Source: Anaerobacillus isosaccharinicus
Lineage (GTDB): Bacteria; Bacillota; Bacilli; Bacillales; Anaerobacillaceae
Assembly: GCF_001866075.3 (NCBI RefSeq)
Contig: NZ_CP063356.1
Location: 3,524,164-3,588,163, forward strand
Reading direction: 5' to 3'
Length of the DNA: 64,000 nt
Shown here: positions 42,321-63,651 of the stretch, one piece after another
How the letters are laid out: every line of letters begins with the position of its first letter
Numbering within the stretch: position 1 is the first letter of the stretch
Position numbers and translations under genes: made by a program
Notes under the pieces: generated by a model
Told to the model about the DNA's origin: nothing
Databases searched by the model: none
What the model saw: the letters and a program-made list of their open reading frames with translations, nothing else

Positions 42321-42383
42321 TTTGGCGGGACTGTGTGGGAATCGAACCCACCGAAGACGGCACGCGCCTCCCTAAGGTTTTGA
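42321..42383 (-). repeat. Left boundary repeat: 3' part of selC (att-like)
   Basis: This matches the intact selC copy at 63553-63616 base for base over the first 52 bp, then over 11 more bp after a single-base gap. It covers the tRNA from the UCA anticodon to the CCA end and stops matching exactly at the anticodon. It cannot be a working tRNA. It is a direct repeat of the selC 3' end, as left by site-specific integration into a tRNA gene. The 335 bases from here to the first island gene hold only a possible promoter. Confidence 0.88.
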
Positions 42384-42648
42384 GATAGTCTGTTTTCAAT
42401 GTGGTGTATAGTGCTTTGTTAATGCGGTTTGGATGATTTATATATATCTGTAGTATATTTAAATTTAAAAACTTGGGCAGCGAGGCTTGGGTGGTTCCTT
42501 TTAAATCGAATATACTAATAAATCATTAATACTTCACCGTAGTCTATACTTTTTAGCTCATTAAAACTAGAAATGATTTTAAGCAATTGAGAAATTTTAA
42601 CTCAATTTGAAAAAAAAATTAATTGTTTCATATAGTGAAATTTCGCAA

Positions 42649-42677
42649 TTGTCATTATATTCAGATTTAATTAAGAT
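42649..42677 (+). promoter_or_regulatory. Possible promoter of the oxygenase operon
   Basis: TTGTCA (42649-42654), 17-bp spacer, TAAGAT (42672-42677), 40 bp before the Rieske gene. Candidate only. Confidence 0.4.
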
Positions 42678-42717
42678 TAATTTAACACTTAGTTATGTTG
42701 TAAAGGGGGATATTAAT

Positions 42718-43989
42718 ATGTTGAAACGCAAAGATAATGAGCTTTTGACTAGGACTGGACCTGAAACACCGATGGGAGAGATGTTTAGAAGATATTGGAT
42801 TCCTGCATTATTATCAAGTGAGGTAGTAGAGGATGGCAAACCGAAGAAAGTAAAGTTACTGAGTGAGAATTTAGTTGCTTTTCGTGATACCGAAGGAAAA
42901 GTCGGTTTATTAGATGAAGCGTGTCCGCATCGGGGAACTTCGTTATACTACGGAATAAATGAGGGTTGTGGGCTTCGCTGTATGTATCATGGTTGGAAAT
43001 TTGATGTTGAGGGTGAATGTGTAGAACTGCCATCTGAGCCTGAGGAAAGCAATTTTAGACAATCAATTGAAATGAAATCGTATCCTATTAAAGAAAAAAA
43101 TGGAATTATTTGGACATATATGGGACCGAAAGAAAAAACCCCACCATTTCCTGAATTTTATTGGATGGGGCTACCACAAGAAAACCTTCTAGCCGAGCGC
43201 GTGTGGCAAGAATGTAACTACTTACAAGTTATTGAAAACGACCTGGACTTTGTACACGCAGCATTTCTACACAAGGCTCACAGTAAACAACAAACTGGTG
43301 AAGGGATTCTAAGTAGTGATCTTGGTATTGACCCAAATCATCCACTTGTTAAAAACCCTCCAGTAAAACAGGAATATGAAAATACAAATTACGGTAAACG
43401 TTGTATTGCAGTAGGTATTGGAAACGAAACACAAAATGCATTTATGGAAATACATTATATTTTTCCGTTTTATACGTTTCCACCTCGTTTCGGTGGAGAA
43501 GATGGGATGTGGCATGCATTTATCCCGCGTGACGACTATAGTACATGGAGTTGGGATGTGCAGTTTGCTCATGACAGACCGATCAATGTTGAGGCCCAAC
43601 ATGCAAGACGTGGTCTTGAGTTAGATGAACACTTTAAAAAGCACCGAAATCTTCAAAATGATTACGAACAAGACATTGAATTAATGAGAACAGGTAATTT
43701 TACTGGTATTAGAGGTATTGCAAACCAAGATCATGCAGCAACAGAAACGATGGGTGCAATTGTTGATCGTTCGAAAGAGCGTCTAGGAACAAGTGATTTA
43801 CCTGTTATTCAAATGAGGAGACTTTTATTACAATCAGTAAAAGATTTCCAAAATGGAATTGATCCGATGCAGCTAAATAATACATCATTAAAGAAACTCT
43901 ATAGTGAAGGAATTTATGATTCGAGAGAAAAGGGATGGCAAGAAGCATTACCCTTACATGAAGACTTCAGTTTAGAGGTAAAAAATTGA
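42718..43989 (+). CDS. Rieske non-haem iron oxygenase, large subunit
   Basis: Aromatic-ring hydroxylating or demethylating oxygenase of the phthalate-dioxygenase-like group, 423 residues. The Rieske cluster ligands are Cys69, His71, Cys88 and His91 (C-P-H-R-G...C-M-Y-H-G-W). The mononuclear iron site is in E-N-D-L-D-F-V-H-A-A-F-L-H near 173-186. I start at the ATG at 42718 after AAAGGGGGA; the frame extends to 42607 without support. First gene of the island's long operon. No flavin/NADH reductase gene for it is visible; the ferredoxin-fusion protein at 61.2 kb is the only candidate electron donor nearby. Confidence 0.88.
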   Translation: MLKRKDNELLTRTGPETPMGEMFRRYWIPALLSSEVVEDGKPKKVKLLSENLVAFRDTEGKVGLLDEACPHRGTSLYYGINEGCGLRCMYHGWKFDVEGECVELPSEPEESNFRQSIEMKSYPIKEKNGIIWTYMGPKEKTPPFPEFYWMGLPQENLLAERVWQECNYLQVIENDLDFVHAAFLHKAHSKQQTGEGILSSDLGIDPNHPLVKNPPVKQEYENTNYGKRCIAVGIGNETQNAFMEIHYIFPFYTFPPRFGGEDGMWHAFIPRDDYSTWSWDVQFAHDRPINVEAQHARRGLELDEHFKKHRNLQNDYEQDIELMRTGNFTGIRGIANQDHAATETMGAIVDRSKERLGTSDLPVIQMRRLLLQSVKDFQNGIDPMQLNNTSLKKLYSEGIYDSREKGWQEALPLHEDFSLEVKN

Positions 43990-43998
43990 GGGATTTCG

Positions 43999-45210
43999 AT
44001 GAATGATAAAAACTATGATGGATATCAATCTTTTCAGTACTTAGAGGCAGGGAAGCATTATAAATCGTTTCAGTTAGCTGATAAAGGTAGACATAAAAAA
44101 ACGCATGCAATTGCATTAACGATTGATCAACAAAAGAAGCTCGAAACAATCTTTAACTATTATCCAATTATTTCGTTAAGGGATCATGGCTTTATTGTGC
44201 CCAAAAAACAAGATGATATATTACCATATTGTCGTCAGTTACACACAATCTATGATTATGAGGGCTTAGCACAATCAGGAATTGATGTTATTTTTGAGAA
44301 TTTTATGGATGGCATTGCGATAGTAACTTCCAATAATGGTTTGAAATGGGACGATGTTATCTATACGCTTGGTATGCGTTTTTGTGATATTTCAAAACAA
44401 CATACGGTGTACTTAGCAAAAACATGGAACGATTTAATAGAGGCTAAGAGTAAAAGGAAAATTGCTCTTTTGCCTTCATTAGAAGCTGCAAGCATATTAG
44501 AAAATGAAGTGGACCGTGTCGATATCCTTTATGGATTAGGTATCCGTTGTATGGGAATAACTTACAACGAATCTAATACTTTAGGCTCGGGATTGACTGA
44601 AAAAAATGATGGTGGACTAACAAAATTCGGGAGAAAAGTTATAGAACGAATGAATGTGTTAGGAATGGCGATCGATATCTCACATTGTGGTGATCAAACG
44701 AGTTTAGATGTAATCAAGGCGAGCAGTGATCCTGTTTTCATTACTCATGCTGGGGCTAGAGGAGTTTGGGACACACCTCGAATGAAATCGGATGAAGTAT
44801 TAAAAGCTTGTGCAGAGAAGGGAGGCATAATAGGAGTATGTGCTGCTCCTAATACCACCCTTTCTCCAAAAAGTCCTAATAAACATACTATTGACTCAGT
44901 CATGGAGCATTTTGAATATTTAGTTGATTTGGTCGGTATCAATCATGTTGGTTTAGGGCCTGACACGTTCTTTGGAGATCATGTAGGTTTACAAAATGCA
45001 TTCGATTCCATTCTAGCAATCTCTGAGTCTCATAGTGGTCAGCACTTTGAAGAGTCTCCTTACGTTTTAGGTTTAGAAAACCCAACTGAGGCGATGGAAA
45101 ATATGTTGCGTTGGCTGTTAGTAAAGAATTATTCTGTGCAGGACATCGCTAAAGTTTCTGGGGAAAACGCTCTAGTAGCGTTAGAAAGAATTTTAGATAA
45201 AGAAAATTAG
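43999..45210 (+). CDS. M19 (renal dipeptidase-like) metal hydrolase
   Basis: 403 residues, amidohydrolase-fold peptidase family M19. Recognisable are G-L-T-K-F-G-R-K-V-I-E-R-M-N near 210, the metal His in I-D-I-S-H near 231, I-T-H-A-G-A-R near 250, and H-V-G-L-G-P-D near 315. The usual first metal motif H-x-D at the N terminus is replaced by R-D-H-G near 61-64, so the binuclear site may be changed. It starts 9 bases after the Rieske gene. It probably hydrolyses an amide or similar bond in a pathway intermediate rather than a dipeptide. Confidence 0.75.
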   Translation: MNDKNYDGYQSFQYLEAGKHYKSFQLADKGRHKKTHAIALTIDQQKKLETIFNYYPIISLRDHGFIVPKKQDDILPYCRQLHTIYDYEGLAQSGIDVIFENFMDGIAIVTSNNGLKWDDVIYTLGMRFCDISKQHTVYLAKTWNDLIEAKSKRKIALLPSLEAASILENEVDRVDILYGLGIRCMGITYNESNTLGSGLTEKNDGGLTKFGRKVIERMNVLGMAIDISHCGDQTSLDVIKASSDPVFITHAGARGVWDTPRMKSDEVLKACAEKGGIIGVCAAPNTTLSPKSPNKHTIDSVMEHFEYLVDLVGINHVGLGPDTFFGDHVGLQNAFDSILAISESHSGQHFEESPYVLGLENPTEAMENMLRWLLVKNYSVQDIAKVSGENALVALERILDKEN

Positions 45211-45225
45211 GGGTGGTGTGCTGCT

Positions 45226-45987
45226 ATGAATATAGATGGTTATGGAAGAATTGCAGTTGTAACAGGAGCTGGTCAAGGACTTGGCCTCTCTATTGCAAAG
45301 GATCTCTTAGAGTCTGGTAAAAAGGTTGTTTTAATTGATGTTAATAAGCAAGCCTTAGAGGAAATAAAGAACTCCGAGTTCATTCAAAGTAAATATGAAG
45401 CTAGGTCGATGTTTTTAGAGATCGATGTAGCAAATGTTCAAGAAATTAGGAGTGGTGTAGGCGCTATTATTCAGAAGTGGGGTAGGATTGATATTTTAGT
45501 TAATAATGCAGGTGTTCGTAAAGAAACAGCCATTGAAGATATTGATATCGAAGAGTGGAATGATATAGTATCTGTCAATTTAGGAGGTACCTTCTTTTTT
45601 TCACAGGCAGTAATTGATACCATGAAAAAACAAAAGTGGGGTCGCATTATTAACATGTCTTCTTTTGGTGGTCAATTTGGTCCTTTAACTTCAGGGGCGC
45701 ACTATTGTGCTTCAAAGGCAGGTCAACTTGTGTTAACGAAAGTATTTGCTAGAGAATTAGCAGATAAGGGAATTACGGTGAATACAATTGCCCCAGCAGC
45801 TATCCGTACCCCTGAAATGGAGAAAATTGATCCTCAAAAATTAGAAAAAATAATTAGTAATATACCAGTTGGTCGGGTTGGTGAGGAGACAGAAGTTTCT
45901 AAACTAGTATCCTATCTGATTTCAGAATCAGCAGGTTATATTACTGGTTCAACTTTTGATATTAATGGTGGACTTCTAATGAGGTAA
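45226..45987 (+). CDS. SDR-family oxidoreductase
   Basis: Classical short-chain dehydrogenase, 253 residues. Cofactor motif T-G-A-G-Q-G-L-G near 15-22, N-N-A-G near 92-95, and catalytic Ser with Y-x-x-x-K (Y-C-A-S-K) near 163-167. ATG after GGGGTGG. Next to a Rieske oxygenase it could be a cis-dihydrodiol dehydrogenase or an IacE-like enzyme; fatty-acid FabG is unlikely in this setting. Confidence 0.85.
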   Translation: MNIDGYGRIAVVTGAGQGLGLSIAKDLLESGKKVVLIDVNKQALEEIKNSEFIQSKYEARSMFLEIDVANVQEIRSGVGAIIQKWGRIDILVNNAGVRKETAIEDIDIEEWNDIVSVNLGGTFFFSQAVIDTMKKQKWGRIINMSSFGGQFGPLTSGAHYCASKAGQLVLTKVFARELADKGITVNTIAPAAIRTPEMEKIDPQKLEKIISNIPVGRVGEETEVSKLVSYLISESAGYITGSTFDINGGLLMR

Positions 45988-46011
45988 ATTTTAAAAAAGG
46001 AGAGGATTATT

Positions 46012-46377
46012 TTGGGAATTAAACATGGTGCTCCACAAGTACCTTCACCGTTAAGGGTGATAATTTATTTCGAGTCAACTGGCTGGTTTAATACAACGAC
46101 AGATGAAAAAACAAATGAAATTTTACCTCAGCTAAATGAGGTAATCCAACAATGGAAATTAAATGGTTCAGAATTATTAGGAACGTTTGACCGTGATATC
46201 CTTACTGCCGGTCCTGCTGGAAACACAGGTTGGCACGCCTGCTTCTTATATAATGTGCCTGACTTACAAACGGTTGCTGATATGACACATTCTTTTCGTG
46301 CAACAGGTTTAGATATGTATTTTAGGTTAGAGGCAACAGTTGGTCGACCGTTCTTCTTATTAGAAAAAGCTGAATAA
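46012..46377 (+). CDS. Small conserved-looking island protein, 121 residues
   Basis: I do not recognise it with certainty. TTG start after AAAGGAGAGG. Pattern: I-I-Y-F-E-S-T-G-W-F strand, a helix (N-E-I-L-P-Q-L-N-E-V), strand with L-G-T-F-D-R-D, G-W-H-A-C-F-L-Y strand, a helix, then R-L-E-A-T-V-G-R-P-F-F. This alternation suggests a dimeric alpha-beta barrel like other small aromatic-pathway proteins. Its place next to Rieske and SDR genes invites comparison with IacB of the indole-acetate pathway, which I cannot confirm without an alignment. Confidence 0.6.
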   Translation: MGIKHGAPQVPSPLRVIIYFESTGWFNTTTDEKTNEILPQLNEVIQQWKLNGSELLGTFDRDILTAGPAGNTGWHACFLYNVPDLQTVADMTHSFRATGLDMYFRLEATVGRPFFLLEKAE

Positions 46378-46406
46378 AAAAGTGGGAAATTGGAGGATGA
46401 CCATTA

Positions 46407-47456
46407 ATGAAGAAAATTAGCTTGCTTATAGTGTTTATGTCGTTGTTGATTGTAGCCGCTTGTGGTAATGAAGGAGTTTCACAGCAAGACAATGTAAACG
46501 ATCAAAATGGTGCAAATTCTGAAAAAAAAATTGAGTTAACTTATGCATTCTTTGCCCCAGCCAATACATTCCCGGCAGTACAAATGGAAAAATGGGCTGA
46601 AGAACTTGAAGCCAGAACAAACGGGAGAGTTAAGGTAAATACATTCCCTGGCGGTTCATTATTAACTGCTGAAAATATGTATCAAGGAGTGGCAAATGGT
46701 ATTGCTGATATCGGACTTTCCTCAACAACGTACGAACCAGGTCGTTTCCCTTTACTTGCGATCGCTGATATGCCATCAGGTTATCCGAATGCTACTGTTG
46801 CAAGTAAAGTGCTTCATCAACTAGTAAGTGAATATCCACCTGAAGCCTTTAATAATTTTAAAATCATTACGACTTTTGCGACAGAACCGAGTTTCATTCA
46901 AAGTCAATTGCCTATTTCGAACTTAAATGAATTAAAAGGAAAACAACTCCGCATTGCTGGTGCAGCTACTCCGATTATGGAGAAATTAGGTGCTGCTCCA
47001 GTTGGAATGTCTCAGGCTGAAGTGCCAGAAGCTCTTCAAACAGGGATCGTTAATGGCTTTGTTTCTTCACGTGAGGTTTTACAAGATTTAAAATTAGCAG
47101 AAATGGTTAGTTATATTACTGATTATCCATTAACAATCAATACATTTGTTGCGGTTATGAATCAAGATGTTTGGAATTCTTTACCGAAGGATGTACAACA
47201 AGTCATTGATGAATTAAATGCTGAAATGGCAACATTCACAGGAGAATATTTAGATAATCATGTAAAAAATTCAATTAAATGGAGTCAGCAAGAGCATGGG
47301 GTAGAAGTTATCACTCTTACTGAATCTGAAAAAGAAACATGGGATAAAATTTTAAGAGAGATGCAAGAAGATTATGTAAATAGCTTAGAAGCTCAAGGGT
47401 TACCAGGAAAAGAGTTTCAAGAAAAGCTATACGAATTAATTAGCCAGTTCAACTAA
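46407..47456 (+). CDS. dctP: TRAP transporter solute-binding lipoprotein (DctP)
   Basis: 349 residues. Signal peptide with lipobox V-A-A-C at about 16-19, so it is a membrane-anchored lipoprotein. The mature part has the DctP fold: a conserved G-I-A-D-I-G segment near 90, L-K-G-K-Q-L-R-I-A-G near 170-180 and Q-T-G-I-V-N-G-F near 210. It binds the substrate, usually a carboxylate, for DctQM. This is probably the uptake system for the compound degraded by the island. Confidence 0.9.
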   Translation: MKKISLLIVFMSLLIVAACGNEGVSQQDNVNDQNGANSEKKIELTYAFFAPANTFPAVQMEKWAEELEARTNGRVKVNTFPGGSLLTAENMYQGVANGIADIGLSSTTYEPGRFPLLAIADMPSGYPNATVASKVLHQLVSEYPPEAFNNFKIITTFATEPSFIQSQLPISNLNELKGKQLRIAGAATPIMEKLGAAPVGMSQAEVPEALQTGIVNGFVSSREVLQDLKLAEMVSYITDYPLTINTFVAVMNQDVWNSLPKDVQQVIDELNAEMATFTGEYLDNHVKNSIKWSQQEHGVEVITLTESEKETWDKILREMQEDYVNSLEAQGLPGKEFQEKLYELISQFN

Positions 47457-47548
47457 AAATGCCTGATTAAGAAAAAGATTTTAAATAAAGGTGCAAATTA
47501 GAAAGTGGCACTTGTTAGGTGCCACTTCTTCATAGGAGGAGGTGCCTA

Positions 47549-48124
47549 ATGAGTAATGCTAATTCCGTAGAAATATTGAAAAAGTCAATTGTCAATGAAG
47601 GCAAGGCTCCTATCGTAGGAAAGGTACCAAACATTCACGTCAAGAAAACATTGTTCGATCAGTTTGTTGTAAAGTTAAGCCAGACATTTGCCTGTATATC
47701 AGGTTCGTCTTTAGTTGCAATGATGCTTTTGATCGTATTTAATGCCATTAAACGTACGGTTTCAACACCTTTTGTCGGAACGACAGAAATAGTTGGTTGG
47801 TTAGCAGCTATAACTTTTTCATTTGGGTTAGCATACACCCAACTACATCGAGGACACGTAGATATTGACTTACTTGTAAAAAAATTACCTCAGCGATTTG
47901 AAAAAGCACTAAAAATATTATTTTTGTCTATTAGTATATCTTTCTTCACAATGGTTGTTTGGCAATTAATACAGTTCGGATTGACGTTAATGAATAATAA
48001 TAATCTATCTCAAACATTACGGATCATTTTTTATCCATTTGTTTTCATCACCTCCATTGGTTTTATGGCTTTTGTATTCGTTCTAGTTAACCAATTTATT
48101 GCTGAATTTAGAAGGAGGGTGTAG
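47549..48124 (+). CDS. dctQ: TRAP transporter small permease (DctQ)
   Basis: 191 residues with four membrane helices (about 45-70, 80-100, 125-145, 160-185) and the family loop H-R-G-H-V-D-I-D-L-L near 103-112. Start ATG 47549 follows AGGAGGAGG; the longer frame to 47519 reads through it. Two bases separate it from dctM. Confidence 0.9.
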   Translation: MSNANSVEILKKSIVNEGKAPIVGKVPNIHVKKTLFDQFVVKLSQTFACISGSSLVAMMLLIVFNAIKRTVSTPFVGTTEIVGWLAAITFSFGLAYTQLHRGHVDIDLLVKKLPQRFEKALKILFLSISISFFTMVVWQLIQFGLTLMNNNNLSQTLRIIFYPFVFITSIGFMAFVFVLVNQFIAEFRRRV

Positions 48125-48126
48125 AC

Positions 48127-49416
48127 ATGGATCCAAATCTACTAGCGCTATTAGGTATTGCTGTACTATTCCTATTATTCTTTCTCCGAATGCCAATAAG
48201 CTTTGCGATGTTTATGGTAGGCTTTTTTGGATTTATGATTCATTCTACACCTAAATCTGCCTTTAATATATTAAGCTCTGATATTTGGGGTCAATTTTCA
48301 AGTTATACCCTTAGTGTTATTCCTCTATTTATTTTAATGGGAGAGCTTATTTACAGGTCAGGTATTACCGAAAAATTATTTGATGCAGCTTATAAGTGGC
48401 TCGGACATTATAAAGGAGGAATGGCGAGTACAACGATATTAGCAAGTTCAGGGTTTGCTTCTATTTGTGGCTCAAATACAGCTACCGCTGCAACAATGGG
48501 AACGATGGCCTTACCCGAGTTAAAGAAGTACAAATATGATGAAGCACTAAGTACAGGAAGCGTTGCGACTGGTGGTACTTTAGGAATTATTATTCCTCCT
48601 AGTACTGTACTAATTGTCATTGCTCTTCAAACACAACTTTCAGTTAAAGATCTCTTTATTGCCAGCATTTTGCCAGCAGTTATTTTAACGCTGTTATTAT
48701 TGCTAACGATTACTTTTCTATGTTATCGAAACCCAGAGTTAGGCCCGCCAGGACCCAATCATTCTCTTAAAGAAAAAATAATCTCTTTAAAGGGCGTTAT
48801 CCCTGTTTTTCTCTTGTTCGCATTTGTCATTGGTGGACTTTACCTTGGCTGGTTTACGCCAACGGAGTCTGGGGCATTCGGAGCGTTTGGTGCATTAGTT
48901 CTTACCTTACTTATGAACAAAATGACATGGGATAAATTTATTTTAGCTGTATCGCATACAATTCGTTCGTCGGTAATGGTTATCCTACTCATTGTTGGTG
49001 CAATCGTGTTTGGAAGATTTCTAACAGTTACACGCTTACCTTTTGCTGTAGCTGACTTTGTTAACTCGTTACCTGTACCTCCAGTTGTCATTCTTATTGC
49101 GATCATCTTTATATATATTATTGGTGGAGCAATTATGGATGCTTTAGGATTTTTAATTTTATCGATCCCGATATTCTATCCGACAATTATTATGCTTGGG
49201 TATGACCCAATCTGGTTTGCGATTATATTATGTATCGTAACAAGCATGGGGGCAATTACTCCTCCAGTCGGCGTTAATGCCTTTATAGTCCAAGGCATAA
49301 CACCGAATATACCAATCACGACGGTATATAAAGGGACTTCTTATTTCTTAGTGGCCTACTCAGTCTTAATAACATTCCTAATTCTATTCCCACAAATAAT
49401 TTTATTTATCTTATAG
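48127..49416 (+). CDS. dctM: TRAP transporter large permease (DctM)
   Basis: 429 residues and about 12 hydrophobic segments. Family motifs G-S-N-T-A-T-A-A-T-M-G near 115-125, G-G-T-L-G-I-I-I-P-P-S near 148-158 and S-M-G-A-I-T-P-P-V-G-V-N near 376-388 form the substrate and sodium-binding hairpins. Sodium-driven uptake together with DctP and DctQ. Confidence 0.93.
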   Translation: MDPNLLALLGIAVLFLLFFLRMPISFAMFMVGFFGFMIHSTPKSAFNILSSDIWGQFSSYTLSVIPLFILMGELIYRSGITEKLFDAAYKWLGHYKGGMASTTILASSGFASICGSNTATAATMGTMALPELKKYKYDEALSTGSVATGGTLGIIIPPSTVLIVIALQTQLSVKDLFIASILPAVILTLLLLLTITFLCYRNPELGPPGPNHSLKEKIISLKGVIPVFLLFAFVIGGLYLGWFTPTESGAFGAFGALVLTLLMNKMTWDKFILAVSHTIRSSVMVILLIVGAIVFGRFLTVTRLPFAVADFVNSLPVPPVVILIAIIFIYIIGGAIMDALGFLILSIPIFYPTIIMLGYDPIWFAIILCIVTSMGAITPPVGVNAFIVQGITPNIPITTVYKGTSYFLVAYSVLITFLILFPQIILFIL

Positions 49417-49430
49417 GGGCGGTGTGGTTT

Positions 49431-49542: not shown

Positions 49543-50949
49543 ATGACTGAGTTATTTATGGAATCAATTTCAACGGTATCACAATTTATTAAGGAAAAAC
49601 GACTTTCACCGGTTGAGTTAACGAATCAAATTTTAAAAAGGATTTCTAAGATTGATACTGAGTTAAATAGTTTTATAACCGTAATGGAAACTGATGCAAC
49701 TAAACAGGCAAAATTACTTGAAGAAGAAATGATGGCTGGGAAAATCCGAGGCCCGCTACACGGTATTCCAATTGCGGTAAAGGATATCATTCAAGTTCAA
49801 GGCCAGCCAACAACATCTGGCTCTATAATTTTTGAAAAATGGGTTCCGGATGAGGATGCCACTGTTGTAAAAAAATTAAAAAAAGCTGGGGCAATTATTA
49901 TTGGAAAAGCAAATTTACATGAATTTGCAATGGGAGCAACAACTGAAAATCCGCATTACGGCAATGTGAAAAACCCTTGGAATTTAAATAAAATCCCAGG
50001 TGGCTCTAGTGGAGGATCAGCAGTTGCAGTTGCAGCAGGATTATCCTACGGTGCACTAGGTACAGATACTGCAGGTTCAATTAGACTACCGGCAGCATTA
50101 TGTGGAATTGTAGGGATAAAACCTACCTACGGAAGAGTAAGTAGAAATGGTTGCCTTCCATTTAGTTGGTCGTTAGATCACATTGGCCCGATGACAAGAA
50201 CCGTAAAAGATGCAGCGATCATGTTAGAGGCGATCTCAGGCTACGATTCAAAAGATACATCTTCAGTTAAACATTGTGAATCTATCAATTTTGCTGATCC
50301 ATTAATTCATTTAAAAGGGATTAGAATAGGTATTTGTAAAGACTATTTATTTGACGATTTAAATGAAGAAGTTCAACTAGCAATAACACGAGCGATTGAA
50401 CGTCTAAGAGAACTAGGTGCTCAAATTATTGAAATAGAACTAAAAAACTTATCAATGGCATTAAATTCACTTAAAGTGATTGCTCAGTCAGAGGTTGTTT
50501 CATTTCACCAGCCTTTATTAAACCAATATGGTCATTTGTATGGTGATGATTTAAAATACCGATTTAAATTTGGTAAGGCGATCAGTGCTGTCGACTATAT
50601 AAATGCGCAACGCCTTCGAAACCTGTTTATAGAACAAACATTAGAATCTTTACAAAACGTTGACGTATTAATCGGACCGACTAATTCACAGCCTCCATTT
50701 GATATTGGTTCTGTTTTGCCAGAAGAGGCGATTAACAATATGTTTTCGTTAGGAAAAACACCATTAGCAAACATTCTCGGGTTCCCAGCATTAACGGTTC
50801 CATGTGGAATTATTAACGGTCATTTACCTACTGGTATGCAATTAATCGGAAAGCCATTTTCTGAAAAATTATTACTTCAAATTGGAGACTGTTATGAAAG
50901 GCAAGAAACATGGTTTGAACAGTATATGGCGAAGTTAGCAGAAAATTAA
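49543..50949 (+). CDS. Amidase (amidase-signature family)
   Basis: 468 residues, full-length amidase-signature enzyme with catalytic triad Lys80 (I-A-V-K-D-I), cis-Ser155 (G-G-S-S-G-G-S) and Ser179 (D-T-A-G-S-I-R). It hydrolyses an amide to acid and ammonia or amine. Resembles GatA but has no gatB/gatC beside it, so a catabolic role is likely. In the iac pathway the comparable enzyme is IacH. ATG 49543 or 49558; weak ribosome site. Confidence 0.88.
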   Translation: MTELFMESISTVSQFIKEKRLSPVELTNQILKRISKIDTELNSFITVMETDATKQAKLLEEEMMAGKIRGPLHGIPIAVKDIIQVQGQPTTSGSIIFEKWVPDEDATVVKKLKKAGAIIIGKANLHEFAMGATTENPHYGNVKNPWNLNKIPGGSSGGSAVAVAAGLSYGALGTDTAGSIRLPAALCGIVGIKPTYGRVSRNGCLPFSWSLDHIGPMTRTVKDAAIMLEAISGYDSKDTSSVKHCESINFADPLIHLKGIRIGICKDYLFDDLNEEVQLAITRAIERLRELGAQIIEIELKNLSMALNSLKVIAQSEVVSFHQPLLNQYGHLYGDDLKYRFKFGKAISAVDYINAQRLRNLFIEQTLESLQNVDVLIGPTNSQPPFDIGSVLPEEAINNMFSLGKTPLANILGFPALTVPCGIINGHLPTGMQLIGKPFSEKLLLQIGDCYERQETWFEQYMAKLAEN

Positions 50950-52445: not shown

Positions 52446-52465
52446 ATAGAGGGAGAGAAGTGTAT

Positions 52466-54169: not shown

Positions 54170-55171
54170 GTGAATAGTAAAAATCTATATTTAGTTGATG
54201 TTACGTTGCGAGATGGAAGTCACGCTGTGAAGCACGCTTTTACAGAGGAACAAATCCGTGTAGTTGCAAGAAGCCTTGATCAAGCAGGTGTTAAATTTTT
54301 TGAAGTTTCTCATGGTGATGGTTTAGGTGGTTCTTCCCTCCAATATGGTTTGTCATTTGTTAATGAAATGAAACTAATTGAAGCTGCTGTTGATGAATGT
54401 CGTCAATCTGAGGTTTCTGTTCTATTAATTCCTGGTATAGGGACAAAAGATCATTTAGATGAAGCAGCGAAGCTTGGTGCTAAAATGGTTCGTGTTGCCA
54501 CCCATGTGACAGAAGCAGATGTGGCACAACAACATATTCAACTAGGGCGTGAGCTTGGTCTTAAAACAGCTGGTTTTTTAATGATGGCGCATATGGCACC
54601 AGTTGATAAGCTAGTTCAACAAGCTAAATTATTTGAGAGTTATGGAGCAGAAATTGTTTACATTGTCGATTCTGCCGGAACTCTTCTTCCTCATCAAGTT
54701 AAAGATAGAACGGCAGCTCTTCGTCAAGTGTTAACTTGTGACATTGGTTTTCATGGTCATAATAATTTATCTCTAGCTATGGCTAACACTATTGAAGCAA
54801 TTAATGAAGGAGCAACTTATGTCGATGGAAGTTTAAGATGCTTAGGTGCAGGAAGTGGCAATACGCAAACTGAAGTGATGGTTGCTGTATTCGAGCGACT
54901 AGGTTTTTTGACTGGTATTGATCTTTATCCAATTATGGATGCTGCTAATGGAGTTGCAGCTCAGATCATGCAAAGACCGCAAGAAGTTACCGGAACTAGT
55001 TTGATCATGGGTTATTCTGGGGTGTATTCAAGCTTTTTATTACATACTCAGGATGCAGCAAAACGATTTGGTGTTGATGAAAGAGATATTTTAGTAGAGC
55101 TAGGAAAGCGACAAGCGGTTGGTGGTCAAGAAGATCTGATTTTTCAAGTAGCTGCTGAACTAGCAAACTAA
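54170..55171 (+). CDS. dmpG: 4-hydroxy-2-oxovalerate aldolase
   Basis: Splits 4-hydroxy-2-oxovalerate into pyruvate and acetaldehyde; HMGL-like TIM barrel, 333 residues. D-V-T-L-R-D-G-S-H near 9-17 (metal Asp, catalytic His and Arg), G-F-H-G-H-N-N near 197-203 (metal histidines). Forms a channelling complex with the acylating dehydrogenase 12 bases upstream. Confidence 0.95.
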   Translation: MNSKNLYLVDVTLRDGSHAVKHAFTEEQIRVVARSLDQAGVKFFEVSHGDGLGGSSLQYGLSFVNEMKLIEAAVDECRQSEVSVLLIPGIGTKDHLDEAAKLGAKMVRVATHVTEADVAQQHIQLGRELGLKTAGFLMMAHMAPVDKLVQQAKLFESYGAEIVYIVDSAGTLLPHQVKDRTAALRQVLTCDIGFHGHNNLSLAMANTIEAINEGATYVDGSLRCLGAGSGNTQTEVMVAVFERLGFLTGIDLYPIMDAANGVAAQIMQRPQEVTGTSLIMGYSGVYSSFLLHTQDAAKRFGVDERDILVELGKRQAVGGQEDLIFQVAAELAN

Positions 55172-55194: not shown

Positions 55195-55977
55195 ATGAAG
55201 ACATGTAATTACAATGATATTGCTCAGATTTTATATGAAGCGGAAAGAAATAAACAAGAAATCACGAGAATTACGTTGGAATATCCTGATTTAACTATTG
55301 AAGAAGCTTATGAAATTCAGGAAAGATTAGTAAGTTTAAAGAAGAAGGCTCATACACGAGTTTTCGGTCCAAAAATGGGATTGACAAGTCGAGCAAAAAT
55401 GGAACAAATGAATGTTAAAGATCCGATTTATGGTTACATCTTAGATCATATGGTACACGAAAATAATAAAACCATCCCAATAGAAGAATTTATCCATCCA
55501 AAAGTTGAAGCAGAAATTGCCTTTATACTAGAAAATGACATTGAAGGTCCTGGTATTACTGGTGCACAGGTACTTGCAAATACGAAATATGTCGTGGGTG
55601 CATTGGAAATCATCGATAGTCGTTATGAAAACTTTCAGTTTACCCTCCCGGATGTTATTGCTGATAACGCATCTTCTTCTAAGGTTGTCTTAGGGGACAA
55701 AATTATCAATGCAAAAGAATTAGAGTTAGATTTAGTAGGAGTAACACTATCGATTAACGGCAATATCGTGGAAATGGGAGCTGGTGCAGCAGTGTTAAGT
55801 CACCCAGCGAATTCTGTAGCTACACTAGCAAATATGCTTGCTAGAAAAGGTGGAAAGCTTAACAAAGGTGAAATTATACTAACTGGGGGCATTACAAGCG
55901 CAGTCATGATAAACCGTGGTGATTATGTTTCTGCAAAGTTTGATGGAATTGGTGAGGTCAATTTTAAGATGAAATAA
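55195..55977 (+). CDS. dmpH: 2-oxo-3-hexenedioate (4-oxalocrotonate) decarboxylase
   Basis: Removes CO2 from 4-oxalocrotonate, yielding the hydratase substrate. 260 residues, same fold as the hydratase: G-P-K-M-G-L-T-S near 60-67, P-K-V-E-A-E-I-A-F near 101-109, I-I-D-S-R near 138. The lysine and K-M-G rather than K-I-G in the N-terminal motif go with the decarboxylase group, but the split from the hydratase rests mainly on gene order. GGGAGG ribosome site. Confidence 0.83.
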   Translation: MKTCNYNDIAQILYEAERNKQEITRITLEYPDLTIEEAYEIQERLVSLKKKAHTRVFGPKMGLTSRAKMEQMNVKDPIYGYILDHMVHENNKTIPIEEFIHPKVEAEIAFILENDIEGPGITGAQVLANTKYVVGALEIIDSRYENFQFTLPDVIADNASSSKVVLGDKIINAKELELDLVGVTLSINGNIVEMGAGAAVLSHPANSVATLANMLARKGGKLNKGEIILTGGITSAVMINRGDYVSAKFDGIGEVNFKMK

Positions 55978-56052: not shown

Positions 56053-56250
56053 ATGCCAATAGTTCAAATATCATTAATTGAAGGACGAGAATTAGAGAAA
56101 ATAAATAAATTAATTGTTGAAGTGACGAAGACAGTCTCAGAGTCTTTAGATTCTCCTGTTGAAAATGTTCGTGTCATTATTAATGAAGTGCCTAATACAC
56201 ACTGGGGTATAGGTGGAAGACCTGCTTCAGAAGTAAGGAAAAGTAAGTAA
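56053..56250 (+). CDS. dmpI: 4-oxalocrotonate tautomerase
   Basis: 65 residues. Pro follows the initiator Met (M-P-I-V), giving the catalytic Pro1 of the family after Met removal; an Arg in V-R-V-I-I-N-E near 38 supplies the substrate contact. Converts 2-hydroxymuconate to 4-oxalocrotonate. AGGAGGAA ribosome site. Last gene before the operon terminator. Confidence 0.9.
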   Translation: MPIVQISLIEGRELEKINKLIVEVTKTVSESLDSPVENVRVIINEVPNTHWGIGGRPASEVRKSK

Positions 56251-56494: not shown

Positions 56495-56518
56495 TAATAA
56501 ATTTTACCAAATTTATTA
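56495..56518. promoter_or_regulatory. 24-bp palindrome, possible operator
   Basis: TAATAAATTT and AAATTTATTA are perfect inverted arms around TACC. No T-tract follows. It lies in the 616-base gap upstream of the XylR/PucR hybrid gene and may bind a regulator. The rest of the gap is AT-rich, with a 10-codon ORF (56810-56842) after GAAGGAG and nothing else I can name. Confidence 0.35.
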
Positions 56519-58789: not shown

Positions 58790-58824
58790 AGCTATAACAA
58801 TAGTAGAAAGGAGCCGGTGTAAGA

Positions 58825-59562
58825 ATGATTAATTCTATTACTAATGCCGTTAAAGTCATTAACTGTTTTTCAATAGAACAGCCTGAAGTAGGAGTATCTG
58901 ATCTTTCAATTAAATTAGAGATGAACAAAAGTACTGTTCATCATATTGTTAAAGCCCTTCACAATGAAGGAGTTTTAGTACGTACACCGAGTAGGAAGTA
59001 TCGATTAGGCTCAAGGTTGTTAGGTTGGGGAAACTTGGTTACTGAACAATACAAATCATTTTTTAATGCGACACCTTATATTGATAATTTGGTAAAACTA
59101 ACAAATGAAGTTGTTCATTTAGCTGTTCGAGAAAATAACGAAGTAAGTTATTTAGCAAAAATTGAACCGAAAACTCCTGTACGAATTAAAACAACTATAG
59201 GAGATAGAAACCCACTTTATTGTACAGCTTTAGGTAAGGTCCTGCTAGCAAGTAATATAGATAAAGATCTTGGCATGATAAATGACCTGATTTTAATTCC
59301 ATTAACTAGTCAGACCATTACCAATCACGAAAGGTTAATAGATGAATTAAGGAAAATAAATGAACAAGGTTATGCTATCGATGACGAAGAGTTTGAAATA
59401 GGATTGTTTTGTATTGCAGTACCTATTAAAGATTTTATGGGCAATGTTGTCTGTGCAATTAGTATTTCAGGTCCAGAGTATCGAATTAAAGAGAACAAGG
59501 ATCACTTGATAAAAAAATTATTGTTAACTGCTTCAAAGATTTCAACGTTTTGTGATCTTTAG
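58825..59562 (+). CDS. IclR-family transcriptional regulator
   Basis: 245 residues: N-terminal winged helix (S-D-L-S-I-K-L-E-M-N-K-S-T-V-H-H near 30-45) and the C-terminal effector domain with G-D-R-N-P-L-Y-C-T-A-L-G-K-V-L-L-A near 130-146. IclR proteins commonly control aromatic catabolism operons. It lies 36 bases after the hybrid regulator and ahead of the monooxygenase/dioxygenase operon. The 213 bases after it hold no gene I can support. Confidence 0.9.
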   Translation: MINSITNAVKVINCFSIEQPEVGVSDLSIKLEMNKSTVHHIVKALHNEGVLVRTPSRKYRLGSRLLGWGNLVTEQYKSFFNATPYIDNLVKLTNEVVHLAVRENNEVSYLAKIEPKTPVRIKTTIGDRNPLYCTALGKVLLASNIDKDLGMINDLILIPLTSQTITNHERLIDELRKINEQGYAIDDEEFEIGLFCIAVPIKDFMGNVVCAISISGPEYRIKENKDHLIKKLLLTASKISTFCDL

Positions 59563-59775
59563 GAGGTGAGCGTTTAAAGAACTGGAAATCCCATTAAGAT
59601 TTGGTTGGCAAATGATAAATGAAAACAATAGTAACTCATTACTCGAATAGGGGATCACGTTAAATATGAGCATTCAGTAAAATTAGGAATATTGTAAATC
59701 TGAAGGTTGAATTATCAGAAAATATTAAATAATTAAACATTAATATTATAATACTATAATTAGGAGTTGTTTACA

Positions 59776-60261
59776 ATGGATCAAAGAGAGTTTAGAAACA
59801 CTTTAGGTCAATTTGCTACAGGTGTAACTGTAATTACAACGATTGGTGATGATCATGAATTGATTGGTTTAACAGCTAATGCATTTTCTTCCCTTTCACT
59901 AGAACCGCCTCTTATTCTTGTATGTATTGATAAAAAGAGTGGTAGTGCACCTGTTTTTGTAAAAGAGAAACCTTTTGTCGTAAATATTTTAACAGAAAAT
60001 CAGGAAGATGAATGCTGGGCATTCGCGAAAAAAGGAACAGATAAATTCAAAAATATTGCGTATACTCTATCAGAATTTGGTGTTCCAATCATAGAACAGA
60101 ATTTAGCAACGATAGAATGTGAAGTAAATGAGGTCCTTGAAGGCGGAGACCATCTTATCGTCACTGGACTAGTTAAAAATGTTCAACAAAATGATATAGG
60201 GGAGCCACTTATCTTTTTCAAAGGGAGAATTTGCAGATTAAATAGTCCTTCGACAATCTAA
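59776..60261 (+). CDS. Flavin reductase (HpaC/RutF-type)
   Basis: 161 residues, flavin reductase-like domain: the opening F-R-N-T-L-G-Q-F-A-T-G-V-T-V-I-T-T and G-L-T-A-N-A-F-S-S-L-S-L-E-P-P near 33-47 are diagnostic. Supplies reduced flavin to a two-component monooxygenase, most likely the acyl-CoA-dehydrogenase-like oxygenase at the end of this operon; IacG has this role in the iac pathway. ATG 59776 is used; the three upstream codons in frame fall between it and GGAG. Confidence 0.9.
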   Translation: MDQREFRNTLGQFATGVTVITTIGDDHELIGLTANAFSSLSLEPPLILVCIDKKSGSAPVFVKEKPFVVNILTENQEDECWAFAKKGTDKFKNIAYTLSEFGVPIIEQNLATIECEVNEVLEGGDHLIVTGLVKNVQQNDIGEPLIFFKGRICRLNSPSTI

Positions 60262-60286
60262 AAATATTTTGAATGGGGGTAAAAAA

Positions 60287-61198
60287 ATGACAGTAATGAG
60301 ACTAGGGCGAGTTGAATTAAGAGTTTTGGACTTGGAAAAATCGGTTGAATATTATACGAATGTGATTGGTTTAGAAGAAACCGGAAGAACGCAAGATCGA
60401 GTATATTTAAAAGCCTGGGATGAGTATGATCACCATAGTTTAATTTTAAAGAAAGCTGATTCAGCTGGTCTAGAGCACTTTGCCTTTAAAGTGAGAAACG
60501 AAACAGACCTAAGTTATTTCGAGAAAAAAGTTGAACAATTTGGCTTAACAACAAGTCGTGTCTCAAAGAATACGCGATTAGCAGAAGGCCAAGCGGTAAG
60601 GTTTATCTTACCTACTGGACATCAAGTTGAACTTTATTATGAGATTGGATATCTAGGAACGGCGGTTGGTACATTAAATCCTCATCCATGGCCAATGAAC
60701 GCGAAAGGAATCGCTCCACACCGCTTAGACCATGTTCTTTTAACGGGAGATGATTTAAAGAGTGTAACGCGCTTTTTTATGGAGGTTCTTGGATTTAATC
60801 AAAGCGAGAAGATTACGACGGTAGGTGGCGAAGAATTATTAGGAAGTTTCCTTTTTGCTACAAACAAAGCGCATGATCTAGCTTTCGTAAAAGGCCCAGA
60901 TGCTAAACTTCATCATGCTGCATTTTTCGTAGACTCCATTCATGATGTATTTAAGGCTGCGGATTTATTAACGATGAATGAAGTACCAATTGAGGTAACA
61001 CCTACTAGACACGGTATTTCAAGGGGAGAAACGATTTATTTCTTTGATCCATCAGGTAATCGCAATGAAGCGTTTGCCAATGGGTATATAACGTATCCTG
61101 ATTTTCCAACAATCACATGGACCGAAGATAAGATTGGTCAAGGGATCTTTTATCATCGTCGTGAATTATTGGAATCCTTTATGAAAGCGTTAACGTAA
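60287..61198 (+). CDS. dmpB: Catechol 2,3-dioxygenase (extradiol, type I)
   Basis: Cleaves the catechol ring next to the hydroxyls to give 2-hydroxymuconic semialdehyde. 303 residues, two vicinal-oxygen-chelate repeats. The iron ligands align in spacing with those of XylE: His149 (P-H-R-L-D-H-V), His210 (L-H-H-A-A-F) and Glu261 (G-N-R-N-E-A-F); the F-F-D-P-S-G-N-R-N-E block is typical. Start ATG 60287 after GGGGGT. It precedes the ferredoxin fusion that may reactivate it. Confidence 0.93.
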   Translation: MTVMRLGRVELRVLDLEKSVEYYTNVIGLEETGRTQDRVYLKAWDEYDHHSLILKKADSAGLEHFAFKVRNETDLSYFEKKVEQFGLTTSRVSKNTRLAEGQAVRFILPTGHQVELYYEIGYLGTAVGTLNPHPWPMNAKGIAPHRLDHVLLTGDDLKSVTRFFMEVLGFNQSEKITTVGGEELLGSFLFATNKAHDLAFVKGPDAKLHHAAFFVDSIHDVFKAADLLTMNEVPIEVTPTRHGISRGETIYFFDPSGNRNEAFANGYITYPDFPTITWTEDKIGQGIFYHRRELLESFMKALT

Positions 61199-61211
61199 AG
61201 GAGGGTGAACG

Positions 61212-62003
61212 ATGTATAAAATAAATTTTGAGTATGCTGATGAAACTTATGAATACACTTGTCAAAGTGAAGAAGATGTATTAAGTGCAGCACGTAAAAA
61301 TTTTATCCCATTACCAACAGGCTGTCGTAGAGGTGGATGTGGGATGTGTAAAGTTAAAGTAGTTGAAGGAAAGTTTGAACATGACCCACTTTACTCAAAA
61401 GATGCTCTTACTGATGAAGAAGTGAAAGAAAAGTATGCTTTAGCTTGCAAAGTATATCCTTCTAGTAATATTAAAATGGTGATTAATTCCTCAAAAAAAG
61501 AAGAAAAAAAGGTAACTCCAAAAACTAATATGACGAATGCATTAAAAGATAGTAAGTGGAATGGTGGTATTTATGAGCGGCCAGTCCTTACTCAAAAAAT
61601 TGCTGCTAGGATGTTAGATAGTGCTTGTCAAAAAGCAAAAGAATTAGGAATATTAATCAATGTAGCTATTGTTGATGATGGAGCAAACTTAAAATCATTT
61701 ACGAGAATGGACGAATCTCCATTACTCAGTGGAACGATTGCGCAAAATAAAGCATATACAGCAGCAAGTTTTGGAGTGCCTACTCATGATTGGTATCCAA
61801 TGATTAAAGATGAACCATCTCTACTACATGGTATTGTTCATACTGATCGATTAGTGGTATTCGGAGGAGGTATCCCAATTAAACTTAATGGCTTTATTAT
61901 TGGAGGAATTGGTGTTTCAGGTGGAACTGCTGACCAAGATATCAACTGTGCTAGTGCAGGACTAAAAGTCTTCGAATCTATTATTAAGGAGGAAAGATCA
62001 TGA
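61212..62003 (+). CDS. 2Fe-2S ferredoxin fused to a GlcG/HbpS-like domain
   Basis: 263 residues. Residues 1-95 are a chloroplast-type ferredoxin with cluster Cys38, Cys43, Cys46 and Cys79 (T-G-C-R-R-G-G-C-G-M-C). Residues 120-260 match the GlcG/HbpS (DUF336) domain: A-I-V-D-D-G-A-N-L near 157, the A-x-x-K-A-Y-T-A-A region near 190, G-G-I-P-I and I-G-G-I-G-V-S-G-G near 233-243. XylT-type ferredoxins reactivate oxidised catechol 2,3-dioxygenase, so its place just after that gene suggests this job. The fused domain's role is unknown. AAGGAGGG ribosome site; ATGA overlap with the next gene. Confidence 0.85.
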   Translation: MYKINFEYADETYEYTCQSEEDVLSAARKNFIPLPTGCRRGGCGMCKVKVVEGKFEHDPLYSKDALTDEEVKEKYALACKVYPSSNIKMVINSSKKEEKKVTPKTNMTNALKDSKWNGGIYERPVLTQKIAARMLDSACQKAKELGILINVAIVDDGANLKSFTRMDESPLLSGTIAQNKAYTAASFGVPTHDWYPMIKDEPSLLHGIVHTDRLVVFGGGIPIKLNGFIIGGIGVSGGTADQDINCASAGLKVFESIIKEERS

Positions 62004-63127
62004 CTGTTGAAATTCAAAACCAGAAATTACTCAACCGAGTGTTGAATGAAATCCGCTCCCGACGGGACGAATTTGAGGAGAAGCGGCACGTGCCTCGAGA
62101 CATGGTAGCGCAACTAAAACAGCTGGGTGTATATCGCGCTCACACGCCGCGCTGCTTTGGAGGTGATGCCTGCTCACCCACGGAGTTCCTAAGGCTGATT
62201 GAAGACATATCCGAAGCTGACGGCTCAGCAGGATGGGTGGCTAGCTTTGGTTCTGCTGCGGTATACTTAGCGTCACTACCACGTGATACGCTTGCACGCA
62301 TATACGCAAATGGCCCGGACGTGTCTTTCGCTGGCGGTCTGTTTCCAGTCCAGCCGGCAGAGAAGGTAGCGAGTGGTTGGCGTGTGAACGGTCTCTGGAA
62401 GTTTGCAAGCGGGTGTAAGGGCGCTGACATTCTCGGCGTCGGTATTGGTACTGGGGATGGTGGCAAGCCGCTCACGGCAGTACTCATGCCCGAGGACGTG
62501 GAAATTGTTGAGAACTGGGAAGTTTTCGGGATGCGTGGAACGGGAAGTCATGACTTGCGAGTGAAAGACGCATTCGTCTCTGACGATTGGACATTTGTCC
62601 GTGGAGGTGTACCTTCTATTGAAGAGCCGATCTTTCAGTATCCATCCATTGCTTATGCATCACAGGTACTGGCGGTAGTCAATCTTGGCGTAGCCCGCGC
62701 AGCGCTAAATGAAGTTTCTCAAATGGCAGGGGGCCATCCTAGCATCACTGGTGCACCGAAAATGGCCGATCGCGCTTACATCCGAATCGCCGTGGCAAAG
62801 GCAGAAGCTTCGCTAAGGTCGGCGCGTGCCTTCTTCTACGAGGCCACCGACTCTGCTTGGGACTCGATCTTGAGGGGAGATGGTGTCTCCGCTGACCAAA
62901 CAAGCATGCTGCGTCTGGCAGCCGTAAAAGCTGCCCGCGCAGGTGCAAGTGCCGTGCAGTCTGCCTACCTGCTTGCCGGAACCGCGGCGATCTACGATGG
63001 GCACCCGCTACAGCGCTATCTGCGCGACGCAATGGTCGTGACCCAGCATGCGTTCCTCAGCGAGGGAATTTATGACGGAGCAGGCTCGGTATTCCTAGGA
63101 GTTCCACCGATGCCAGGCTACATCTAA
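62000..63127 (+). CDS. Flavin monooxygenase of acyl-CoA dehydrogenase fold
   Basis: 375 residues, class D flavin-dependent monooxygenase (HsaA/HpaB/IacA-like), which uses reduced flavin from the reductase in the same operon. Seen: R-D-M-V-A-Q-L-K near 33, G-G-D-A...F-L-R-L near 54-65, A-D-G-S-A-G-W near 73, G-x-W-x-F-A-S-G near 131-138, and the G-M-R-G-T-G-S-H-D motif near 178-186 of acyl-CoA dehydrogenases acting as hydroxylases. The first about 45 bases match the AT-rich local style, after which the gene turns visibly GC-rich until its stop, unlike every neighbour. That suggests recent transfer from a high-GC donor. Probable role: hydroxylating the aromatic substrate on the way to a catechol. 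Confidence 0.83.
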   Translation: MTVEIQNQKLLNRVLNEIRSRRDEFEEKRHVPRDMVAQLKQLGVYRAHTPRCFGGDACSPTEFLRLIEDISEADGSAGWVASFGSAAVYLASLPRDTLARIYANGPDVSFAGGLFPVQPAEKVASGWRVNGLWKFASGCKGADILGVGIGTGDGGKPLTAVLMPEDVEIVENWEVFGMRGTGSHDLRVKDAFVSDDWTFVRGGVPSIEEPIFQYPSIAYASQVLAVVNLGVARAALNEVSQMAGGHPSITGAPKMADRAYIRIAVAKAEASLRSARAFFYEATDSAWDSILRGDGVSADQTSMLRLAAVKAARAGASAVQSAYLLAGTAAIYDGHPLQRYLRDAMVVTQHAFLSEGIYDGAGSVFLGVPPMPGYI

Positions 63128-63157
63128 TTCCTAGACTGATAAGTACGATTGAGCGAG

Positions 63158-63203
63158 TTAAACCCATTACATTTAACCAAAAGATGTAATGGGTTTAATT
63201 TGT
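63158..63203 (+). terminator. Terminator after the monooxygenase operon
   Basis: TTAAACCCATTACAT / ATGTAATGGGTTTAA, a perfect 15-bp stem with a short loop; the T-tract is weak (TTTG). Confidence 0.7.
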
Positions 63204-63398
63204 TAATAATTCTAATAAAATTGTTTTATTTAAGCACAGATTGTATAGATGCGTACAAATTATGTTGCTGCTTTACATCAGTGTTCGTCAATTGTATATT
63301 TTTGAACTATTGACTATCGTTTAGTTGATTTCTGTGAGCCCTTCAGTTGCTTTAAAAACCATAAGTTTTCTAAGCCTTTTCTGCCCGTTTTTCTCCAT

Positions 63399-63431
63399 AA
63401 AAAAAACCTCCCTATTTGTATAAAGGAGGAT
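63399..63431 (-). terminator. Possible present-day selC terminator
   Basis: On the reverse strand CCTCC and GGAGG are separated by about 13 bases and followed by eight T. It lies about 130 bases beyond the selC 3' end and could replace the displaced original terminator. A 25-codon ORF starting just after it (63398-63321) uses the same GGAGG and is doubtful. Confidence 0.4.
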
Positions 63432-63464
63432 ACAGTTTGAATATTTATGTAATTGAGCCCCAAT

Positions 63465-63498
63465 GGTCAGCCAAAAAGGTCTCCCAAGGTTAGCCAAA
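63465..63498. repeat. Pair of 11-bp repeats near the island's right end
   Basis: GGTCAGCCAAA (63465-63475) and GGTTAGCCAAA (63488-63498), 23 bp apart, with an inverted partial copy (TTGGCTA, around 63700) on the other side of selC. Short repeats flanking an attachment site are typical arm-type integrase sites. Confidence 0.35.
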
Positions 63499-63552
63499 GT
63501 CAGCCCTGAAACCTCTTGATATCTAAAACCACAAAAGCCATGAAAACCTTGA

Positions 63553-63616
63553 TTTGGCGGGACTGTGTGGGAATCGAACCCACCGAAGACGGCACGCGCC
63601 TCCCATAAGGTTTTGA
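63553..63616 (-). repeat. Right boundary repeat (3' part of the intact selC)
   Basis: Counterpart of the repeat at 42321-42383, in the same orientation. Here it is the 3' part of the whole selC gene, so the gene stays complete on this side. Confidence 0.88.
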
Positions 63617-63651
63617 AGACCTCGGCAAACACCAGTTACACAACCAGCCCC
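63555..63651 (-). tRNA. selC: tRNA-Sec (anticodon UCA)
   Basis: 97-nt tRNA on the reverse strand with encoded CCA. The anticodon stem GAGGT/ACCTT carries the loop CTTCAAA with anticodon TCA, which reads UGA. A long variable arm of about 20 nt follows, with a G-A-G-G-C/G-C-C-type stem. T arm GTGGG-TTCGATT-CCCAC. The acceptor stem has seven pairs (one G-U) plus an apposed G and A in the eighth position, where bacterial tRNA-Sec usually has a pair. The D arm pairs poorly in my hand fold. Anticodon, variable arm and length make the assignment firm. It marks the right end of the island. Confidence 0.9.

Follow-up and report, generated by a model that had tools for sequence, protein, structure and literature searches.

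A probable tandem of two integrative elements in the selenocysteine tRNA gene of Anaerobacillus isosaccharinicus and a selC-associated integrase family in Bacillales

The selenocysteine tRNA gene, selC, of Anaerobacillus isosaccharinicus lies in a stretch of DNA in which a sequence-only reading had recognised one aromatic-degradation island. We analysed that stretch of 64,000 nucleotides (nt), which we call the window (C1:3524164-3588163); it lies within one contig, C1, of 5,227,144 bases, and coordinates above 64000 extend the window numbering. It is highly probable that this selC holds two related integrative elements in tandem, A and B, and that the left end of B is formed by a selC 5' half and the right end by a 3' half. 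The observations are three repeats of selC sequence, a congener site containing neither A nor B, an integrase gene that is a remnant in A and intact in B, a link between this integrase and selC in other genomes, and a likeness between the flank of the inner whole selC and those of other elements. From these we infer the point of exchange, the present mobility of A and B, the activity of a promoter-like flank and the order of arrival. The earlier single-island interpretation is partly supported, and may be valid for segment A alone.

Three copies of selC and a site without the insertion

Direct repeats at 42321-42381 and 63553-63613 are 93% identical over 61 nt without gaps. When a gap is allowed, 63 nt align with 64 nt at 98.4% identity, the initial 52 nt being identical and the match resuming past one base. 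This is the sole direct-repeat family of at least 25 nt detected in 38000-64000, with a spacing of 21,232 bp from start to start, and within the window ARAGORN predicts a single whole tRNA-Sec (63555-63651, minus strand). The sequence-only reading is borne out on these points: the repeats lie where it had placed them, the right copy is within a whole selC, the left copy is a 3' fragment of selC with a terminator hairpin, the insertion is in selC. Islands in tRNA genes are recognised by a partial copy of the gene repeated directly at either end, and such a repeat is present.

The selC block occurs in three places in the genome: the left fragment, the whole copy in the window (selC#1) and a second whole copy outside the window (selC#2, C1:3725082-3725180). 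selC#2 retains the flank and neighbours common to congeners, leading to selB, selD and selA; SelD and SelA of this genome, and the SelB homologue of the congener G005, exceed their NCBIfam cut-offs. The genus set comprises seven genomes, our own and six congeners (G001-G006). All six congeners have a whole selC, with a separate 3' fragment also in G003 and G006, and all six have a homologue of the first gene right of selC#2 to the right of selC. The gap between selC and this homologue of the gene at 201517 is 217-896 bp in G002, G003, G004 and G005; it is longer in G001 (3.4 kb) and in G006 (9.2 kb).

An empty site is present in one of the six congeners, G005, the one with a short left flank like that of our genome. 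Its only selC is preceded by the homologue of window 42148-42320, including the hairpin that had been predicted beside selC in a relative, and is followed by the homologue of 200920-205777; window 42148-42383 aligns with 8088-8316 of the G005 locus L034 at 82.5% identity over 240 columns. Because these flanks stand on both sides of a single selC, G005 is without A and B together. The sequence left of 42320 had been expected to join that right of 63616, but in G005 it joins the sequence right of the outer copy, selC#2. The insertion is therefore 158.5 kb long, a tandem of which the catabolic genes occupy one part. That one 21-kb island lies complete between the window repeats, as the sequence-only reading held, is very unlikely: it accommodates the pair of repeats, one a 3' fragment and one in a whole gene, but there is a third copy 137 kb further right, it is only past this third copy that the flank and genes common to congeners begin, and it is to this side that the left flank of G005 is joined.

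The chance that the selC copies are assembly artefacts is smaller still. The genome is known from a single assembly, but the copies lie on one 5.2-Mb contig and there are like junctions in G003 and G006. The 3' side and gene of the two whole copies (63363-63651 and 200728-201017) are 95% identical, the arm alone about 93%; the arms beside the whole copies differ by 5-7%, a difference that would not arise from duplication in the assembly.

Other features were seen beside selC. A tRNA-like gene is found there in two species, at C1:3725366-3725435 near selC#2 and at L034 8650-8719 in G005. These genes score 59.5 and 54.8 bits, respectively, against an Rfam tRNA cut-off of 29, and ARAGORN assigns them no amino acid, just a two-base anticodon. 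In G003 (L035) and G006 (L037) the left side of selC has open reading frames (ORFs) of 387 and 400 amino acids (aa) that look by eye like a second integrase type. They end about 100-110 bp short of selC, next to three recombinase-like ORFs, and L032 (G001) has what may be a remnant.

The integrase family and its selC targets

Segment B contains an intact integrase gene (199780-200763, minus strand) 157 bp from selC#2. The product is a 327-aa tyrosine recombinase (PF00589) whose scores against XerC/XerD and other NCBIfam models stay under their cut-offs. Residues R174, K201, H268, R271, H294 and Y303, which we take to be catalytic, are invariant in 15 aligned sequences. No integrase had been reported inside the island, but the stretch 63316-63418 (minus strand) is the 5' remnant of such a gene with an internal deletion, and it matches the gene and arm of B in pieces of 93% (193 columns) and 86% (59 columns). 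A tyrosine recombinase gene thus adjoins the restored tRNA gene in both segments, intact in B and as a remnant only in A. Because the start of a like integrase gene, internally deleted, remains in A, this segment was probably once an element of the same kind as B which has since lost its integrase.

A search of 299 genomes gave 13 best matches outside our own genome (49-64% identity), from other families of the order; at these loci ARAGORN finds tRNA-Sec in eight cases, tRNA-Ser in one and no tRNA in four. The scan of named genomes covered the best 80 of 145 integrase loci, with a whole selC counted within 450 bp upstream of the integrase gene. Among the 58 relatives of at least 44% identity, 40 are beside a whole selC, eight beside a 3' part and seven beside a 5' part; two of the remaining three are on contigs that are too short and one is at tRNA-Ser. 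At 40-43% identity (seven relatives) there are two whole selC, one nearly whole, one tRNA-Arg, two loci with none and one contig too short, and below 40% (15 relatives) two whole selC, three other tRNA genes and ten loci with none. Within Bacillales these integrases target selC frequently, 55 of the 58 relatives of at least 44% identity being located beside it. The earlier remark that selC is a known island target in enterobacteria is to that extent incomplete. The 3' parts beside the integrase fit internal junctions of tandem arrays, as do the fragments at L036 (G003) and L038 (G006). Literature searches of titles and abstract openings returned no description of a selC island family in Bacillales.

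Relatives of the integrase are also seen on two IMG/VR contigs classed as viral (L091 and L092, 58% and 56%). The circular 176-kb plasmid pSHB26 of Peribacillus simplex carries a selC 3' fragment (L174 6001-6066, nt 32-97, 81%).

In the seven split loci the upstream flank is retained, as is the gene up to about the anticodon stem; from there to the integrase the sequence is different. In L095 the likeness extends to nt 61. We scored 150 selC candidates per split genome with the Rfam model, out of 189-278 in six genomes and 359 in one. Each of the seven has one selC and a selB match over the respective cut-offs, and on this ground loss of selenocysteine use in these genomes was rejected. The whole selC is 6.8-20.7 kb away, in all seven on the side expected for the far end of the element, and its 5' half agrees with that of the split copy in 43-45 of 45 nt. 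The far-end 5' flanks have in common a promoter-like TTG...TATAAT region, repeats, and AACGTTGATNTAAC directly before the gene, a signature matched in six of the seven. On a profile of far-end flanks six of the seven split-copy flanks, at -0.4 to 3.9 bits, do not belong to this type. Split elements would, on these comparisons, leave the front half of the host gene at the integrase side and bring their own front half at the far end. This pattern, an element bringing the 5' half of its target with the upstream region, is found in all seven split genomes; for B of our own genome it is seen as profile likeness only. The seven split-type integrases do not form one clade in a quick tree, support values not being considered. 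Neobacillus pocheonensis has two whole selC of the same 97 letters 9.1 kb apart, with an integrase at one and an arm-type flank at the other, and Alkalihalobacillus deserti has two selC 23 kb apart on one contig and a third elsewhere.

The profile was built from nine flanks, the seven far ends and one copy each from N. pocheonensis and A. deserti; the null was 300 shuffles of letters, which do not preserve dinucleotides. The flank of selC#1 scores 30.3 bits (bias 6.7), second of 51 real test flanks, the shuffles reach 8.2 at most, and the native selC#2 flank scores -5.3. A flank of far-end type at selC#1 would therefore explain why a whole gene stands at an internal junction.

We propose that the tyrosine recombinase, intact only in B, would recombine within selC, probably in the anticodon loop. 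Element A is bordered on the left by the selC 3' fragment with the host hairpin, and on the right by a whole selC. The left end of B would bring a selC 5' half preceded by a promoter-like flank of its own, and its right end a 3' half beside the integrase, so that each end of B has a whole selC. In a usual tandem only a 3' fragment would be expected at the junction of A and B; the whole selC#1 found there would owe its 5' half to B. The paired selC of N. pocheonensis and A. deserti are parallels to this arrangement. The best reading of the data is a selC-specific island family of Bacillales in which either the integrase end or the far end of the element, or each of them, restores the gene.

Several points weigh against this account. 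The junction of A and B is known from one assembly. The stretch of left flank in common with G005 extends for no more than about 170 bp beyond selC and could have been left behind by an older element; in both G005 and G002, window 40510-42135 is on another contig. The left side is variable among congeners, the homologue of gene 35241-38315 being about 12 kb left of selC in G002. Eight other real flanks of the 51 top every shuffle, namely that of selC in G001 (L032, 29.0 bits) and those of seven integrase-side copies (L112, 38.1; L125, 27.5; L126, 20.3; L105, 16.0; L094, 12.4; L141, 9.3; L108, 8.5); the G001 score, together with the 3.4-kb gap, fits a decayed element there. The split-copy flank of L109 also lies above the shuffles, at 12.3 bits. 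Training arms score 7.1 to 86.9 bits when left out, so one arm reaches just 7.1. The aligned part of the selC#1 flank stops about 20 nt short of the gene, and the pre-gene signature fits selC#1 with two mismatches, as it does eight of 44 integrase-side copies. The selC#1 flank aligned to inverted integrase-side arms with a local score of 31, the best of 300 shuffles being 32 and 33; an inverted arm was not significant, and the comparison with far-end flanks of other elements took its place.

Two other histories of B were considered. It could have come as a circular plasmid-like molecule with a whole selC, through exchange between two whole selC genes, or selC#1 could be a duplication, with no special left arm; we regard this as unlikely. 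B has a ParA-like gene, and a search of 72,556 plasmid records gives 23 with a match to selC, including one from Cytobacillus spongiae; in 22 the match covers at least 80% of the gene. However, no replication gene was recognised among the 18 B ORFs given to Pfam, the Cytobacillus record is linear, 690 kb long and by eye has chromosomal-looking genes, and the selC#1 flank is like the arms of elements. A plasmid origin was set aside, the ParA-like gene standing alone and selC-like matches being this rare in plasmids. At the sensitivity of the plasmid search there was no selC-like match in the phage collection. Somewhat less likely again is that B came first as a far-end-restoring element, that A then entered selC#1, and that gene conversion with the similar arm of A gave the right end its 3' half back. 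The arms of A and B are 93-95% identical and the far-end-restoring state exists in seven relatives, both in keeping with this order; it takes one extra step, and these data cannot tell it from the tandem of two elements preferred here.

Contents of segments A and B

The features are listed in Table 1. The sequence-only reading had assigned a meta-cleavage cargo to A, and family searches agree: four enzymes score over their cut-offs and three lower-pathway enzymes below, and the cargo is a putative catechol meta-cleavage set. That the whole set came as a unit is not established. The gene at 62000-63127 has a GC content of 55% with sharp edges, against 32-39% for the other catabolic genes scanned, and its best match among plasmid records is from Cupriavidus (77%); it is probably from a high-GC donor. 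The catechol 2,3-dioxygenase, in contrast, is nearest to Parageobacillus plasmids (70%; pPthBH4-1, 70.5%). In the genus, the one longer match to a 5-kb piece of A is in G002, at 68% identity; it lies some 464 kb from selC on the same contig. G003 and G006 give short matches, and G001, G004 and G005 have no match to it.

Segment B has a GC content of 29-38% per 3 kb and many internal repeats, including repeated recombinase genes. Conjugation genes (relaxase, coupling protein, type IV secretion) are absent among the families found in A; no conjugation families were found in the 19 of 117 listed B ORFs given to family search, the remaining ORFs being viewed by eye only. The gene at 63866-64522, right of selC#1, has no Pfam match and among 199 genomes is confined to our own; it was dropped as a clue to the donor. 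PADLOC identifies Wadjet-type JetD, JetA and JetB in B (C1:3701799-3709751), followed by a 1522-aa ORF, and a GTPase (C1:3717597-3718703) has weak matches to the LeoA and LeoBC defence models.

Table 1. Features of the selC locus and of the cargo of segment A
Feature	Position	Strand	Basis or remark
Hairpin 3' of selC, host (left) side of insertion	42281..42311	-	terminator by eye; similar hairpin beside the one selC in G005
Left att site for segment A: selC 3' fragment from anticodon loop to CCA	42321..42383	-	repeat and genome searches
Left arm of element A, without selC 5' half	42384..42600, extent approximate	.	likeness to sequence at L036/L038 fragments by eye, unscored
Segment A	42384-63554		21,171 bp
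Rieske oxygenase, LigXa_C-like	42718..43989	+	Pfam PF00355, PF19301
Membrane dipeptidase family M19	43999..45210	+	Pfam PF01244
Short-chain dehydrogenase	45226..45987	+	family search
121-aa protein	46012..46377	+	without match: Pfam (E 0.001), NCBIfam (E 1e-15)
TRAP transporter DctP, DctQ, DctM, three genes	46407..49416	+	family searches
Amidase	49543..50949	+	Pfam PF01425
2-hydroxymuconic semialdehyde dehydrogenase-like	50967..52445	+	TIGR03216 660.7 bits, below cut-off 693.25
2-oxopent-4-enoate hydratase-like	52430..53260	+	330.3 bits, below cut-off 408.8
Acetaldehyde dehydrogenase (acetylating)	53279..54157	+	TIGR03215 over cut-off
4-hydroxy-2-oxovalerate aldolase	54170..55171	+	TIGR03217 over cut-off
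2-oxo-3-hexenedioate decarboxylase-like	55195..55977	+	283.7 bits, below cut-off 350.55
4-oxalocrotonate tautomerase	56053..56250	+	NF002524 and TIGR00013 over cut-off
XylR_N-V4R regulator with PucR-type helix-turn-helix	56867..58789	+	family searches
IclR/PcaR-type regulator	58825..59562	+	below cut-offs
Flavin reductase of two-component monooxygenase	59767..60261	+	below cut-offs
Catechol 2,3-dioxygenase	60269..61198	+	TIGR03211 over cut-off
2Fe-2S ferredoxin domain and HbpS-like domain, single ORF	61212..62003	+	Pfam
HsaA-like flavin-dependent oxygenase, 55% GC	62000..63127	+	below cut-off
Remnant, 5' end of element A integrase gene, internal deletion	63316..63418	-	two-piece match to intact gene and arm
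Integrase-side arm of element A	63419..63554	.	alignment of 63401-63554 with 200765-200920
Whole selC#1, A/B junction	63555..63651	-	97/97 nt identical to selC#2
Left arm of element B, 5' flank of selC#1, with TATAAT	63652..63801	-	profile score
Segment B	63652-200920 (right end C1:3725083)		137,269 bp
Whole selC#2 (outer)	200921-201017		97 nt
ORF right of selC#2, then SelB-like ORF, SelD, SelA	201517-202785		

Comparison with known systems

The plasmid pPthBH4-1 of Parageobacillus thermoglucosidasius has in common with A, besides the catechol 2,3-dioxygenase, a tautomerase, a flavin monooxygenase with its reductase, a ferredoxin, a XylR_N regulator, two fumarylacetoacetate-hydrolase-type enzymes, an aldolase and an acetaldehyde dehydrogenase. 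The gene order differs, and the TRAP transporter, amidase, Rieske oxygenase, M19 peptidase and GC-rich oxygenase, as well as the location in a chromosomal selC island, are found in A but not in the pPthBH4-1 cluster.

As a tentative but real possibility, we suggest that elements found across Bacillales specialise in selC and take over its transcription through their own 5' half and promoter, supplying either the sole source of tRNA-Sec or a second copy in the host, so that selenoprotein synthesis would depend on the element. If this is true, selC#1 of the window would be an element-driven second copy. Whether mobile elements control a host's only selenocysteine tRNA becomes directly testable. 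The family extends selC as an island target from enterobacteria to Bacillales, with its own integrase family, and one family displays all three states: a whole target gene beside the integrase, a whole one at the far end, and one at each end. It also provides an integrase whose target is defined in many Bacillaceae.

The selC islands of enterobacteria are tRNA-gene genomic islands with a tyrosine recombinase. A and B appear to resemble them in the target gene, in the 3' fragment on one side and the whole gene at the integrase, and in tandem accretion. They differ in that the hosts are Bacillales, with an integrase family that adjoins selC in 55 of 58 relatives, and in that some members in Bacillales leave selC split, with a whole copy at the far end, while others have it whole at both ends.

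Some elements, among them archaeal cases, recombine at the 5' portion of tRNA genes; they are cited in the passages of PMC6563490 that deal with this subject, which give such recombination as considerably rarer than that with the 3' part (citing Zhao and Williams 2002). As these passages describe them, such elements resemble the selC elements in bringing the 5' part of the gene with the region that precedes it. Unlike the elements so described, the selC family would unite 3'-part, 5'-part and both-ends types within one integrase family and at one gene.

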